From Bacteroidota bacterium (lineage in GTDB: Bacteria; Bacteroidota; Bacteroidia; Bacteroidales; VadinHA17): 64,000 nucleotides of DNA. The notes beneath the pieces were generated by a model. That model searched no databases and had not been told where the DNA came from. It saw nothing but the letters and a program-made list of their open reading frames with translations. The stretch is taken from the NCBI GenBank assembly GCA_029547705.1, contig JAKPOU010000017.1:1-64000 (forward strand). Direction: 5' to 3'. Positions 18,337 through 26,733 of the stretch are shown piece by piece. The position numbers and the translations under genes are program-made. Position 1 is the first letter of the stretch; every line of letters begins with the position of its first letter.

Positions 18337-20490
18337 TTATTCAACTATTGTCATTTCGTCCACAAGATGCCGGGCACCGGCATATATATCTGTTATCCAG
18401 AGTACATACCTGATATCCACAGCAATAGTCCTCTGAACTTCGGGTTCATAAAAAACATCGCCGCTCATTGCTTCCCAGTTGCCGTCGAAAGCCAGGCCTA
18501 TCAGTTCCCCGTTTGCATTCATTACGGGACTTCCTGAATTACCTCCTGTAATATCATTTGTTGTCAGGAAATTCACCGGGAGATATCCCTCAGAGGAAGC
18601 ATATCTGCCGTATTCCTTTCCTTTATGAAGTTCCAGCAGTCTGGGCGGCAGATCGAATTCATAGTCGCCGGGCCTGTATTTGTCAATCACACCATCCAGT
18701 GTCGTGAAGTATTTGTACGTGACTGCATCCCTCGGCTCATAGTCGCGGATAGTACCATATGAAAGCCGCATTGTGGAATTGGCATCAGGGTAGAGGGTTT
18801 TGCCGGGAATCATTTCTCTCAGTGCAGCTATCCAGAGCCTGCGGCCCTCCGCCAGTTTGCCGTCAAATTTGTCAAGTTCATCCGTAAGGAGGTTGCGGAC
18901 TTCGATGATAGAATTAACAGCCTGTGCAACAGGATCGTTCTCAAGGATCTTCAATTTTGGTGATGAGAGGAAGGAGATCAGTTTTTTTTCGCCTGCAAAG
19001 ACAGACCGTCTGAACATATCGTCAACATATTTTCCGATATTTCCCCTGAATTTCCTGTCAATGATTTCACTGTAAAAGGAGGGATGGAATTTTGCGGGAA
19101 CATCATTTCTGTAAAGCTGGAGCATTTTCTTTGTGGTTTTCTGATCCGTGGGCGGATTGTAATCCTTGTACAGACCGGGGGCGATATTTTTTATCCTTTC
19201 CGCCGCCCTTTCTGTCTTTTCCCTGTCGCCCGACCTGAGGGCTTCCGACAGTGCTGCAGTGTACATCATGAAATCGAATATTTCGCAGCCCCTCATACAT
19301 TCATTCAGGTACTGGTATGCGTTCTGATATACAGCACGCCCTTCTATTGACGACCGGATCAGGTTCAGTGCCTCCCCGTATTCCGATTTTCTTCCGGCAT
19401 CCTCATTCACCCATGTGTTGAACCTGTTTTCAATCTCTTTCTTCTTGTCAGTCACGGCAAGGGAGACCAGCTGCCTGTTCTGTCCGATGGAATATTTCCA
19501 GTAATTTGAGGATGTTGAATATTTGGATGCATACTGGATGTTTACCGCGGGGTCGGCCAGCATGTCTTCCATCCATGATTCCTGCTTTATTCCCCTTATC
19601 TTTATCCGGTTTGGATTGGTTATCTGTAATAATTCACCGACTTCCCAGGAGGTGTAATATCGCTGTGTCCGGCCGGGATAGCCCATCACCATGGTAAAAT
19701 CTCCCTCGTTCAGATCCTTTATGGATACTCTTAGCCAGTTCCTGGAATTAAGCGGGATATTATCCTTTGAATAGGGTGCGGGTTTTCCGTCGGGACCGGT
19801 GTAGATGCGGAACATGCTGAAATCTCCGGTATGCCGAGGCCATTCCCAGTTATCGGTATCATCCCCGAAACTGCCTATGGATGAGGGAGGAGCCCCGACG
19901 AGCCTTACGTCGGTATATCTTTCGTAAACGAGAAGGTAGAAATAGTTTCCGCCGTAGAATGACACAACGGAAGCCCTGTAACCATTTTCGCGGGAGGCAG
20001 TCCTTTCAATTGAATGACTGACGGCACTTATGGCTTTTTCCCTCTGGGATTCACTCATTTCCGGCTTCAGCTCCGACAGTACCTGATCGCTTACGTCCTC
20101 TATTCTTATGAGAAAGGATACCGAAAGCCCGGGATTGGGGAGTTCCTCTTCCCTTGTCATTGCCCAGAAGCCATCCCTGAGATAGTTGTGTTCAAGGCTG
20201 CTGTGTGACTGGATGGCGCTGTAGCCGCAGTGATGATTGGTGAGCATGAGTCCCTCTGGGGAAACCAGTTCACCGGTGCAGCCTCCGTCCATGAAGCTTA
20301 CCACTGCATCTTTCAGGCTTGCATTGTTGATGCTGTATATATCGTTTGCAGACAGTTTCAGTCCGAGTGTGGTCATGGTACCGATATTCAGTTTCTCTAT
20401 CATGGGTAAAAGCCACATGCCTTCATCAGCCTTTGACACTGAACCGGAACATATCAGAAGAAGAAATAACAATTGAATTGATTTTTTCAT
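18337..20490 (-). CDS. S46 family dipeptidyl peptidase, DPP7-like
   Basis: 717 aa with a Sec signal ending around residue 21 (SGSVSKA-DEGMW). The trypsin-like parts are TNHHCGYSAIQ (catalytic His87), WPRHTGDFSMFR (probable catalytic Asp about 223) and TGGNSGSPV (Ser652). The residue 18 positions after the catalytic Ser is Gly670 (FDGNWEAMSGD). In characterised Porphyromonas enzymes Gly at this place goes with DPP7 (hydrophobic P1) and Arg with DPP11 (Asp/Glu P1), so a DPP7-like specificity is inferred. The enzyme releases dipeptides from oligopeptides in the periplasm. Promoter box at 20524-20531. Confidence 0.93.
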   Translation of the reverse strand: MKKSIQLLFLLLICSGSVSKADEGMWLLPMIEKLNIGTMTTLGLKLSANDIYSINNASLKDAVVSFMDGGCTGELVSPEGLMLTNHHCGYSAIQSHSSLEHNYLRDGFWAMTREEELPNPGLSVSFLIRIEDVSDQVLSELKPEMSESQREKAISAVSHSIERTASRENGYRASVVSFYGGNYFYLLVYERYTDVRLVGAPPSSIGSFGDDTDNWEWPRHTGDFSMFRIYTGPDGKPAPYSKDNIPLNSRNWLRVSIKDLNEGDFTMVMGYPGRTQRYYTSWEVGELLQITNPNRIKIRGIKQESWMEDMLADPAVNIQYASKYSTSSNYWKYSIGQNRQLVSLAVTDKKKEIENRFNTWVNEDAGRKSEYGEALNLIRSSIEGRAVYQNAYQYLNECMRGCEIFDFMMYTAALSEALRSGDREKTERAAERIKNIAPGLYKDYNPPTDQKTTKKMLQLYRNDVPAKFHPSFYSEIIDRKFRGNIGKYVDDMFRRSVFAGEKKLISFLSSPKLKILENDPVAQAVNSIIEVRNLLTDELDKFDGKLAEGRRLWIAALREMIPGKTLYPDANSTMRLSYGTIRDYEPRDAVTYKYFTTLDGVIDKYRPGDYEFDLPPRLLELHKGKEYGRYASSEGYLPVNFLTTNDITGGNSGSPVMNANGELIGLAFDGNWEAMSGDVFYEPEVQRTIAVDIRYVLWITDIYAGARHLVDEMTIVE

Positions 20491-21462: not shown

Positions 21463-22552
21463 ATGGTAAGCAGTGAACAGATAAAAAGTCTTTCCGGACG
21501 CCTTGAGGCGTTAAGGAGGTATCTTTGACATCGACGGAAAGCTGAAGCAGATTGAGGAAAAGGAAAGTCTGACCCGCCGCCCGGGATTCTGGGATGATCC
21601 GAAACAGGCAGGCGAAACCGGAAAGAGCATATCGCGGCTGAAAAGCTGGACGGAGGAATTTGACAGGCTAAAAACCGCCATTGATGATCTGGAAGTGATA
21701 AATGATTTCTTTCATGAAGGAGAAGCCACCGAAAAGGATCTGGACGACCAGTATGAAAAATGCATTGAGCTGATCGAGAATCTTGAGGTGAGGAATATGC
21801 TCGGGAAAAAGGAGGATCAGCTTGGAGCTATACTGAAAATAAATTCCGGTGCCGGAGGCACTGAAAGCAATGACTGGGCAGCCATGCTCATGCGCATGTA
21901 TCTGCGCTGGGCCGAGAGGAACAATTACAAAACACGTCAGCTCGACTTCCTTCCCGGCGACGAGGCCGGAATAAAATCTGTTACAATAGAAGTAGAAGGA
22001 GATCAGGCATACGGCTATCTGAAAAGTGAAAACGGTGTTCACCGCCTGGTCAGGATCTCACCCTTCAATGCACAGGGCAAGCGGCAGACAACATTTGCAT
22101 CGGTATTCATTTCACCCCTGGTGGACGAAAATATTAAGATTGAAATCAATCCCTCGGATATAAGCTGGGAGACATACCGTTCCAGCGGTGCCGGCGGACA
22201 AAATGTCAACAAGGTCGAAACCGCAGTCAGGCTGAGGCATCATCCTACCGGACTGGTGATAGAAAACCAGGAGACAAGATCCCAGCTTAACAACAAGGAG
22301 AATGCCATGCGCATCCTCAAGTCCCATCTCTATGAGATGGAACTCAGAAAAAGAATGGAGGAACAGTCAAGGATAGAAGGGGAAAAGAAAAAAATCGAAT
22401 GGGGCTCACAGATCCGTTCGTATGTAATGCACCCCTACAAGATGGTGAAGGACCTCCGTACTGGATATGAAACCGGTAATGTGCAGGCTGTACTTGACGG
22501 CGATCTGAACGATTTCATCAGGTCATACCTGATGGAATTCGGGGGAAGGTAA
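21463..22552 (+). CDS. prfB: peptide chain release factor 2, programmed +1 frameshift
   Basis: Translation starts at 21463 and reads 21 codons to CTT followed by an in-frame TGA (21526-21528), then continues one base later at GAC (21527) to the TAA at 22552, giving about 362 aa. The slip site is aggaggtatctttgac (21515-21529 region) with an SD-like aggagg upstream, the classic RF2 autoregulatory arrangement: low RF2 favours the shift. Visible motifs are RISPFN (SPF tripeptide that reads UGA/UAA stops) and [13 protein letters not shown] (GGQ, which triggers peptide release). The glutamine is methylated by PrmC, encoded 5 kb downstream. A promoter and hairpin precede the gene. Confidence 0.97.
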
Positions 22553-22576: not shown

Positions 22577-25500
22577 ATGCAGATGTCAGAAAGAAAAAAA
22601 CTCTTTGAGGAATTTCCTCCCGTCAGCACTGAAGAATGGATGAACAGAATAAGATCCGATCTGAAAGGATCAGATTTCAGCAGCAGACTGGTGTGGAAAA
22701 CTTCCATGGGATTTGATGTGATGCCCTTTTACAGGCAGGAAGATATTGAAAACCTGGAATATCTTCATGCTGCAGCCGGTGAATTCCCCTATATACGGGG
22801 GAAAAAATCCTGTGACAACAGCTGGAGAATACGCCAGGACCTGAAGGTGACCGATTATGCATCCGCCAACAGAAAAGCTCTCAGGCTTGTCAGGGACGGC
22901 ATCGATTCGCTCGGCTTCTATCTCGCTGATCCGGAATCCATAAACCCGGAAAACCTGGATATTCTCCTTTCAGGTATCAGTCCCGAAACGACGGAGCTGA
23001 ATTTTCTCAGCGACGGCAGGGCAAAAGAGCTGGTTACGGCATTCATACAGAATACGGAGAGATTTCTTCCGGAAAAGATAAGAGGAGCAGTTGAAACAGA
23101 TCCGCTTGGCCGCCTGATGCTTAACGGAACACTCTGCATTCCTGTCGCGAAAGGTTTCGACTACCTTGCAGGAGTGGCCGGACTGACCACGGAACTGCCA
23201 CTCTTCCGTGCCATTCACCTGAATGCGGCAAATATCAGGAATGCGGGGGCAGATATGGTGACAGAACTTGCCTTTGCATTGTCAATGGGTGCCGAGTACC
23301 TGTACGGACTGGCTGAAAGGGGGATTGACCCTGAAACAGCAGCCCGGAAGATCCGGTTTTCCTTCGCTGCCGGACCGGAGTACTATCCCGGGATTGCCAG
23401 GCTGAGAGCCGCCCGCCTGTTGTGGTCGGTTATCCTGAACAAATTCGGAACCGGCATCCAGGAAGCAATGGAGATCCACTGCACTACAATGCGGATCAAT
23501 AAAAGTACGGCAGATTCCCATATCAATATGCTGAGAACCCAGACTGAGGCAATGTCGGCCATCCTGGGAGGTGCTGACTCGCTGACTGTTGAGCCCTTCG
23601 ATATTATTTCCGGAAACCCGGATGAGTTCAGCGAAAGAATAGCAAGGAATCAGCAGCTGATACTCAGGGAGGAAGCCCGGTTTGCGGAGGTGGCTGATCC
23701 CGGCGGCGGGTCATATTATATTGAAAAACTCACTTACCTGATAGCAGACAGTGCCTGGAAGCTTTTCCTTGAAACGGAAAGGGAAGGCGGTTTCATCAGG
23801 GCGCTCGGAAAAGGCTTTGTCGGAAAAAGGATAGCAGAACGGGCCGCAGGCTTTACAGGACAGGGAAGGGATAAAATAATAGTGTTTCCGGCCCCGGTTC
23901 CTGAAACATGGCAGGAACAGGAAGCTGATCCTGAACCTGCCGGACCCGGACATGAACCGGAATCTGTATCCGGCCGCATACACGGTCCTGCAGGTCTTTT
24001 CCGGGATGGAAAGAATCCGCCATCCCCTGTCACAAAACCGGGTGATATGCCTGCAAATCCTGAAGGGAGTGCCGTCAAGAACTGCTATACGTCCGCCGAC
24101 CTTTACGGAATGGAGCATCTGGGCTATGCTGCGGGGCTGCCTCCCTTCCTCAGGGGTCCCTATTCAGCAATGTATGCACTGCAGCCCTGGACCATCAGGC
24201 AATATGCAGGATATTCCACCGCTGAGGATTCAAATGCCTTTTACCGCAGGAACCTTGAAGCCGGACAGACCGGCCTGTCGGTGGCTTTCGACCTTCCTAC
24301 ACACCGCGGTTATGACTCGGATCATGAAAGGGTTGCCGGGGATGTCGGCATGGCGGGTGTTGCAGTTGATTCGGTAGCCGACATGAAAATTCTGTTTGAC
24401 CGCATACCGCTCGACCGTATATCGGTGTCGATGACCATGAACGGGGCAGTGCTTCCGGTGATGGCATTCTTCATCGTCACCGCGCTTGAGCAGGGAGTAA
24501 GGCCGGAGGATCTCACCGGGACCATCCAGAATGACATACTCAAGGAATTCATGGTAAGGAACACTTATATATACCCGCCTGATTTTTCCATGAGGATAGT
24601 ATCTGATATTTTCAGGTATACGAGTGAAAAAATGCCCAGGTTCAATTCGATCAGCGTTTCGGGTTACCATATGCAGGAAGCCGGTGCAACATCCGACATA
24701 GAACTTGCCTATACTCTCGCCAACGGTCTGGAATACCTGCGTACAGGAATAAGGGCAGGACTGGATATCGACACCCTTGCCCCTCGGATATCTTTTTTCT
24801 GGGGCACCGGAATGGATTATTTCATGGAAATAGCCAAGATGCGTGCAGCCAGGATGCTGTGGGCAAAAATCGTGAAGGGCTTCAATCCCGGAAATCCGAA
24901 ATCAATGGCTCTGAGAGCCCATTGCCAGACTTCGGGATGGAGCCTCACGGAACAGGATCCCTACAACAATGTCGGCAGGACATGCATTGAGGCCATGGCT
25001 GCAACAGCCGGACATACACAGAGCCTTCACACAAATGCCCTTGATGAGGCACTGGCACTGCCCACCGATTTCTCCGCCGCCATTGCAAGGGATACCCAGA
25101 TATACATACGGGAGGAAACGGAAATATGCAGGGCCGTTGATCCATGGGCTGGCTCCTATTATGTTGAATTACTTACAGACCGGATTGCCCGCAGGGCCTG
25201 GGAGCACATCACGGAGATTGAAAAGCTCGGGGGAATGACAAAAGCCATTGAGTCGGGAATTCCCCGCATGCGGATAGAGGAAGCGGCTGCAAGGACTCAG
25301 GCGGAAATTGATTCGGGACTGAAAGTGATTGTGGGAAGTAACAGGTACCGGCCGGAAGGGGAGAAGGCACTTGAAATCCTGGAAGTGGATAATACAGCTG
25401 TCAGGAATTCCCAGATAAAAAGACTTGCTGAGCTGAAGGCATCAAGGAATGAGGCTGAATGCCGTTCGGCCCTTGATGCAATCACGGAATGTGTGAGGAC

Positions 25501-26107
25501 CGGCAAGGGAAACCTGCTGGAACTGGCCGTAAGGGCTGCTTCCGCCAGGGCAACCCTCGGAGAGATATCCTATGCTTGTGAAAAAATTACAGGAAGATAT
25601 AAAGCAGTGATACGATCAGTTTCAGGTGTGTATTCATCAGGCTACGGGCCGGACCGGGATTTTACCGAGGCAAAAGCCCTGGCTGCCGGTTTTGCTGAAA
25701 AAGAGGGGCGCCAGCCCCGGATCATGATTGCAAAGATAGGTCAGGACGGCCATGACCGGGGTGCGAAAGTGGTTGCCACGGGCTATGCCGATATAGGATT
25801 CGATGTGGATATCGGACCCTTGTTCCAGACTCCGGAGGAAGCGGCAAGGCAGGCAGTGGAGAATGATGTCCATGTTCTTGGCGTTTCCAGTCTTGCAGCA
25901 GGACACAAGGCACATATTCCCAAAGTTCTGGATGAACTCAGGGAACTGGGGAGGGAAGATATCCTGGTGATTGCAGGAGGAGTTATTCCTCCTCAGGACT
26001 ATCAGTTCCTTTTTGATGCAGGCGTTGCAGCCATTTTTGGTCCGGGGACATCAGTGGCAAAGGCGGCAAAACAAATCCTTGAAATACTGCTGGAGGCATT
26101 TGAATAA
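22577..26107 (+). CDS. methylmalonyl-CoA mutase, small and large subunits fused
   Basis: One uninterrupted 1176-aa ORF. Residues 1-437 are a small-subunit (MutA) barrel ([36 protein letters not shown]). Residues 438-500 are a Pro/Gly/Glu-rich linker. Residues 501-1176 are the large subunit (MutB): [32 protein letters not shown] with the active-site Tyr, [19 protein letters not shown], and the B12-binding domain [13 protein letters not shown] with axial ligand His1059. The MutA half lacks its usual degenerate C-terminal B12-like domain, and MutB lacks its N-terminal arm of about 50 residues. The enzyme interconverts succinyl-CoA and methylmalonyl-CoA in propionate metabolism. It starts 24 bp after prfB. 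No MeaB or epimerase gene is in the window. Confidence 0.93.
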
Positions 26108-26211: not shown

Positions 26212-26733
26212 ATGGAAGATCAAAATCAGAATCCGGAAATGCCCGGGAATCAGGAAAGAGGATCATCGGGACAGAGCCTTGGGGTAGCTTCCCTTATCAC
26301 TGCAATCATAACGTTTGTTCTTGCAGTAATACCCTGTGTGGGGCTAATGGCTGTAATTCCGGGAATAATCACCATTGTGCTTGCCTCGGTAGGCCTTTCC
26401 CGGTCATCGGGGAATGATTCCCGCCGCGGCCTTCTTGTTGCGGGTCTGGTGATAGGAATTGTGGCCACGCTGATTTCAATTTCCCAGATTTATGTTGCGG
26501 GTGAGATTTTCAGGAAATCGGGCAAGTGGCCGACTAAGATTGAAAAGATGGTTGATGAGATTCAGAAGGAAATAGACAAGGCCATTGAAGAAGCGAGTGT
26601 GGACATCAGGATTGAAAACGGAGACAATAACGCTGATATCAGTCCGGCTTCCGGTAAAACAGCAAGGGAAAGGACCCTTGAGGAACTTGAAACCGGAAAA
26701 TCTTCCCTCAGTGACACTCTCTCAAGTCCGTAG
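26212..26733 (+). CDS. DUF4190 membrane protein
   Basis: 173 aa. A short hydrophilic, Asn/Gln-rich N-terminus is followed by two hydrophobic segments (LGVASLITAIITFVLAVIPC and LMAVIPGIITIVLASVGLS) and a third (LLVAGLVIGIVATLISISQI), the DUF4190 pattern with GLSRSSGNDSRRG between. The C-terminal 70 residues are charged and soluble. Function unknown. It is followed after one base by a DUF2752 gene; this pair is often seen together in Bacteroidetes. Confidence 0.75.
   Translation: MEDQNQNPEMPGNQERGSSGQSLGVASLITAIITFVLAVIPCVGLMAVIPGIITIVLASVGLSRSSGNDSRRGLLVAGLVIGIVATLISISQIYVAGEIFRKSGKWPTKIEKMVDEIQKEIDKAIEEASVDIRIENGDNNADISPASGKTARERTLEELETGKSSLSDTLSSP

Follow-up and report, generated by a model that had tools for sequence, protein, structure and literature searches.

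The DNA stretch analysed here, called the window below (64,000 nucleotides; positions 1 to 64,000 of contig JAKPOU010000017.1, assembly GCA_029547705.1, from a Bacteroidota bacterium of the Bacteroidales lineage VadinHA17), carries a gene that encodes both subunits of methylmalonyl-CoA mutase (MCM). It occupies positions 22577-26107 of the forward strand, is a single open reading frame of 1176 codons from ATG to TAA and has a predicted product of ~129 kDa. With a probability of about 0.85, it is a genuine in-frame mutA-mutB fusion that was made in place, is one of several in Bacteroidota and specifies a covalent heterodimer. The members of the window's genus (g1) were classified from their DNA by stop-to-stop frames, and the junction is free of stops in 15 of these genomes, including that of the window (G000). 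An earlier note, made from the sequence without database searches, had placed both subunits in one frame: This was confirmed and replicated in 14 genus relatives. In all of them, the separate mutA and mutB genes of a two-chain MCM heterodimer are missing.

Residues 8-425 match the NCBIfam model of the small MCM subunit, TIGR00642, over profile positions 2-432 of 620. The score of 578.4 bits lies under the full-length cut-off of 617.25, and profile positions 433-620, the cobalamin-like domain, have no counterpart in the A half. This agrees with the note, which had described MutA as devoid of its vestigial B12-like domain. In a phmmer comparison, the A half matches the barrel of the beta chain 1e1c_B (E 4.2e-48). 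By its matches, the A half is homologous to MutA, but trimmed. Residues 494-1173 match the large-subunit model PRK09426 with 1454.7 bits (cut-off 876), and TIGR00641 is matched with 1030.3 bits (cut-off 303.8). The cobalamin-binding domain model TIGR00640 covers residues 1045-1170 with 198.2 bits (cut-off 57.45), and in Pfam, the mutase domain is matched by two stretches of the protein and the B12-binding domain by one. By these scores, the MutB half is classed as a large, catalytic MCM subunit across barrel and cobalamin domain. Active-site positions were transferred from an alignment with P. shermanii MCM, for which we take the roles of the seven residues as given. Y543, Q651, R661, H698, K1053, D1057 and H1059 are all present in the window protein and invariant across an 18-row alignment, so that the RQYAG tyrosine motif and DGHDRG with His1059 are kept, as the note had stated. 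Tyr543 aligns with Tyr89 of P. shermanii MutB and presumably shares its role; His1059 is, by homology, presumably the lower axial cobalt ligand. A second match to the fused protein was not found in the window's genome (3.78 Mb, 70 contigs), which contains one meaB-type GTPase match and one methylmalonyl-CoA epimerase match.

Ten of the fused genus frames are complete and comprise 1171-1207 codons (G000, G001, G010, G011, G022, G024, G084, G085, G095, G096). The copy of G099 is cut at its start and those of G012 and G078 are cut by contig ends. G003 (L129) is fused through the junction and has a frameshift further down in its MutB half; G080 is fused through the junction and has an N-run after the linker. 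These two defects, the mostly fragmented assemblies and the rejected look-alike G050, in which a 1264-aa frame consists of a penicillin-acylase-like gene, an N-run and mutB, would fit an assembly or sequencing artefact that joined two genes. Against this stand A halves of the other fused genus members that are 56-85% identical to that of the window, linkers that differ in length yet stay in frame, and fusions in the single-contig genomes G815 and G852 outside the genus. The ratio of nonsynonymous to synonymous substitution rates (dN/dS) in five fused pairs is 0.07-0.16 for the A half, 0.04-0.09 for the B half and 0.35-0.71 for the linker; two genomes were used twice, some MutB halves are partial and some dS values are saturated. 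Both halves are under purifying selection. Since 15 genus genomes read through the junction and selection acts on either side of it, an assembly or sequencing error, the latter named in the note as a possible refutation, is excluded; at the sequence level, the artefact reading is effectively refuted, and its residual probability is negligible. Relatives with a stop and a start in the linker, the other refutation considered, do exist, but they are the unfused ones.

The 15 fused rows form one clade with the unfused G013 (support 100/100), whose 637-aa MutA keeps the vestigial domain and is followed by mutB after an 8-base gap. The fused gene is preceded by prfB in 13 of 15 genomes; the contigs of the remaining two, G003 and G099, start too far downstream to include it. 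In unfused genus members including G013, prfB precedes the locus as well, which argues that the fusion was made in place. As the domain is retained in G013 but absent from all fused members, the simplest scenario is a single deletion that took the domain, the stop and the gap. It would have occurred at the prfB-mutA-mutB locus in a single clade of the genus, which is uncultured and Bacteroidales-like. Starting shortly behind the MutA barrel, it would have covered the vestigial domain, the stop codon of mutA and the few bases up to the mutB start. Thereby, the frames would have been joined and the domain removed in a single step.

The linker bears traces of both genes. Its first part can be aligned with the residues that follow the MutA barrel in the unfused G013. 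Unfused MutB of the genus starts with an arm of ~35 residues, typically from M(R/K)PKF..SDL.. to W(V/I)TPE.IP, and with a profile built from 86 arms of unfused loci, 10 of the 15 fused linkers score higher than any of their 200 shuffles. By these two matches, the linker is identified as a MutA stub plus the MutB arm. It measures 53-70 residues across the fused genus proteins, counted from residue 424, and has one layout in all of them. The note had assumed that the MutB arm was removed; instead, it is the second linker part, recognisable in 10 of 15 proteins and eroded in the window copy, where the arm, now internal, may have drifted into a Pro/Gly-rich linker. A composition rich in Pro, Gly and Glu (13, 7 and 6 residues) holds. 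The proposed length of 63 residues (438-500) does not, as it overruns into MutB sequence: The strict linker, 438-493, comprises 56 residues.

In the AlphaFold model (predicted template modelling score 0.88), both halves are packed together. Residues 439-490 have predicted local distance difference test (pLDDT) values below 50, i.e. the linker is predicted to be disordered. In the cell, the chain would fold as a covalent MutA:MutB heterodimer. Its MutB half would bind adenosylcobalamin (AdoCbl) through His1059 and interconvert methylmalonyl-CoA and succinyl-CoA; its MutA half would be a non-catalytic scaffold whose tether fixes a 1:1 ratio. The forced subunit ratio is a reasonable inference, and the protein is most likely an ordinary AdoCbl-dependent mutase with a tethered scaffold subunit, whose activity and direction are presumed. 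Cofactor loading would be performed by a separate MeaB. According to PMC9974510, no contact between the inactive subunit and the G-domain is predicted; hence, the loss of the second MutA domain need not disturb loading. Alternatively, the MutA half might be a decaying passenger on a MutB homodimer like the human enzyme. MutA repeatedly sheds its vestigial domain, evolves faster than MutB and, in g393 and G986 (see below), the segment before MutB is short or hardly recognisable. The low A-half dN/dS in the window's clade argues against a passenger, as does a pooled ratio of nonsynonymous to synonymous differences (pN/pS) of 0.225 for the A half vs 0.207 in unfused relatives, and we regard this alternative as very improbable.

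Several points weigh against a single fusion that yields one intact chain. First, the trees disagree on the position of G013. It is placed beside G001 and G022 in a 107-row tree (FastTree support 92), for which G004 was too short, is unresolved in one tree and stands beside G001 at 54 in another. In a MutB-only tree, it lies outside six fused representatives at 96, and in a second MutB tree inside an unresolved fork. The neighbourhood to G001 and/or G022 in two trees would suggest that the fusion arose twice within the window's clade. By contrast, constraining all fused rows to one clade costs 1.1 log-likelihood units (approximately unbiased test, p-AU 0.29), the MutB-only tree separates G013 from the fused representatives and the linkers share their layout. 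Two origins are therefore considered rather unlikely. Second, the arm is not clearly shown by the profile in 5 of 15 linkers, for which shuffles scored as well: G000 (window) in 39 of 200, G084 in 175, G012 in 8, G024 in 173 and G085 in 18. Third, evidence that the arm decays after fusion is weak: Over the 34 residues that precede the MutB core, pN/pS amounts to 0.71 in six fused pairs compared to 0.49 in nine unfused genus pairs, the proper control, which is only a modest relaxation; three pairs outside the genus yield 0.17. An initial comparison, 0.65 vs 0.33, was discarded, as it mixed genus and outside pairs, and the better control weakened the effect.

Fourth, internal starts are possible. 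In 9 of 15 fused genes, a start codon is found in the former mutB start region, which lies 28-41 residues ahead of the MutB core (ATG in G003, G011, G022, G078 and G096; GTG in G001, G024, G080 and G099). In the window copy, the ATG at residue 491 is the sole ATG, GTG or TTG codon within residues 438-493. Together with the predicted disorder of the linker, such codons would permit two proteins from the fused gene, either by internal initiation of a free MutB or by post-translational linker cleavage. However, the old start region contains no start codon in G000 (window), G084, G010, G012, G085 and G095, the linker of G085 contains none at all, and in g274, g367 and g393 the barrel meets MutB nearly directly, leaving little linker to cut. 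A two-protein outcome thus appears improbable. Fifth, AlphaFold has probably seen MCM heterodimers, and its alignment included 23 read-through neighbour pairs; the predicted packing is therefore not independent evidence. Finally, activity, product mass and expression are predictions.

The vestigial domain was also lost without fusion. Among 50 classified genus members, 15 are fused and domain-less, 20 are unfused without the domain and 15 are unfused with it. All 50 callable rows from outside the genus possess it. If no regain is allowed, the domain was lost 10 times (9 with weak branches collapsed); eight losses lie outside the fused clade, and most losses in the genus took place without fusion. 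Domain-less separate MutA proteins fall into two size classes, with tails of 72-86 and 3-17 residues past the barrel. The unfused domain-less members are G006, G007, G009, G014, G016, G021, G023, G070, G071, G072, G073, G076, G077, G079, G082, G087, G088, G089, G098 and G100; MutA of G070 (L155) is split over two frames and was counted here, and that of G014 is truncated at its start by the contig end. For G004 and G020, no domain call was obtained. The sample consisted of 96 of 104 matched family genomes (all except G019, G074, G093, G057, G060, G063, G114 and G122). In the genus members G081, G086, G090, G091, G092, G097 and G102, no MCM match was found at 1e-50, which may reflect loss or incomplete assembly. 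Among 80 loci of the contig collection, MutA is short in 46, long in 22 and was not found beside mutB in 12.

The note had suggested a search for the same two-domain order in other Bacteroidota, and fusions beyond the genus, which it had not foreseen, were indeed found. As the open-frame figure of the genome search reads across one stop, junctions were checked in the DNA. At least 35 fused genomes were identified, including the 15 of the window's genus. In g274 (f136), eight are fused: G575, G809, G717, G689, G805 and G758 are complete (1093-1149 aa), G746 and G750 are contig-cut, and at the 24 other g274 loci examined, MutA is separate and long-tailed. Three fused genomes belong to f142/g310 (G868, G907, G922) and two to f142/g393 (G941, L367; G942, L368). 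The latter are very short, with frames of 1028-1039 aa, a divergent MutA barrel and no MutB arm. In f170/g367, all five members searched are fused (G803, G815, G852, G876, G1040; L381-L385; 1139-1166 aa), and f148/g352 contributes two, G1025 and G834 (cut at its start). In the 34 fusions in which BLAST finds MutA, no more than 112 residues, including the arm, separate the MutA core from the MutB core, compared to tails of ~195 residues where the vestigial domain is present, so there is no room for this domain. BLAST finds no MutA in G941, which was nonetheless included among the fusions, as it matches G942 from end to end. G986 (L390) has a 934-aa frame with ~250 in-frame residues before MutB and no BLAST match to MutA; it was not counted. 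Its leading segment is perhaps a degenerate MutA remnant.

In the MutB trees, the window's clade, g274 and g310 each stand amid unfused relatives. For the deep-branching groups g393, g367 and g352, the set contains few unfused neighbours, and they may represent one to three events. Parsimony requires 4 changes in the first MutB tree and 7 in the second, which is weakly resolved and in which G013 alone may add one. This suggests a minimum of four independent fusions in well-separated branches: one each in the window's clade, g274 and g310, plus one or more among the deep groups. The joints differ as well. In g274, the MutB arm (RPDFSAIDIFS) follows the barrel nearly directly, in G907 a series of near-repeats around DDGRGAIDERRNEK is inserted, and g393 and g367 have almost no linker, which reads as separate solutions.

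Many candidates were rejected. Of the 393 genomes sampled from the order, only the window's genome and G022 gave a match that covers both halves, and 42 order rows with frames above 1300 all proved to be separate genes on the stop-to-stop check. Of 22 listed phylum rows with frames above 1050, 19 are separate genes and three are true fusions (G575, G809, G868). Open-frame figures of 1214-1387 aa were dismissed, since a stop was found between the genes in those re-fetched. The look-alikes G980, G1011, G984, G677, G540, G929, G899, G556, G571, G776, G864 and G585 were dropped, too. A plasmid search matched 429 records; the 15 listed span 2.0-2.2 kb, i.e. one MutB-sized gene matched by both query halves.

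The enzymes of P. shermanii (1req) and M. tuberculosis (6oxc/6oxd) consist of two chains, whereas the window protein is one chain, whose catalytic half is ~61% identical to 1req_A and 6oxd_A. MutA of heterodimeric bacterial MCM possesses the second, cobalamin-like domain that is missing here. It is missing, too, in the 20 unfused genus members with short MutA (among 50 classified), where mutA adjoins mutB with a stop between them and an own mutB start, and in the 46 of 80 loci, mostly Flavobacteriaceae, with short separate MutA (frames of 451-490 aa). None of these 46 is fused, and their MutA is 31-35% identical to the window's A half. IcmF (isobutyryl-CoA mutase fused; 4xc6) is likewise a natural fusion in the mutase superfamily. 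The window protein matches the IcmF model with 347.8 bits compared to a cut-off of 1500 (best stretch 540-1009), and it has no GTPase family match in Pfam or NCBIfam. No report of a MutA-MutB fusion was found in searches of the open-licence PubMed Central literature, beyond which subscription papers lie; 'subunits are fused' in PMC7726332 concerns cobalt transporters.

Table 1. Positions of the fused gene's features and its upstream neighbour in the window.
Feature	Position	Strand	Support
prfB (release factor 2), upstream neighbour, ends 24 bases before the fused gene	21463..22552	+	
MutA core, residues 1-437, predicted non-catalytic barrel without vestigial cobalamin-like domain	22577..23887	+	TIGR00642, dN/dS
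Linker, residues 438-493, MutA stub end and eroded MutB N-terminal arm	23888..24055	+	
In-frame ATG, residue 491, possible internal start of an arm-less MutB	24047..24049	+	
MutB catalytic barrel, residues 494-1012	24056..25612	+	PF01642, TIGR00641
RQYAG, residues 541-545, including Tyr543	24197..24211	+	
MutB cobalamin-binding domain, residues 1045-1170	25709..26086	+	TIGR00640, PF02310
DGHDRG, residues 1057-1062, including His1059	25745..25762	+	
TAA stop of the fused gene	26105..26107	+	

The neighbouring prfB holds the classic programmed frameshift site, AGGAGG followed by TATCTTTGAC, after 21 residues; the main frame continues to 22552. Downstream of the fused gene, a small open reading frame for a membrane-protein-like product is located at 26212-26733, and relatives of it lie near mutB in many genus members. 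On the opposite strand, 18337-20490 encodes a 717-aa secreted serine-peptidase-like protein, which we take to be of the S46 type.

We lean slightly towards the view that Bacteroidota have repeatedly made a one-chain mutase by whittling down the inactive subunit, with the stripped barrel joined to its catalytic partner in four to seven branches. If so, domain loss would be the step that enables fusion, since the domain is absent from every fusion seen. The most extreme fusions have almost no linker and no docking arm, and the catalytic subunit would then require nothing more than a bare MutA barrel. Natural variants allow the contribution of the inactive subunit to be studied: Within one genus, close relatives have full, trimmed, or trimmed and fused MutA, and the fusion recurs in other branches. 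Furthermore, as a single chain, this useful B12 enzyme would be expressed at a fixed 1:1 ratio.
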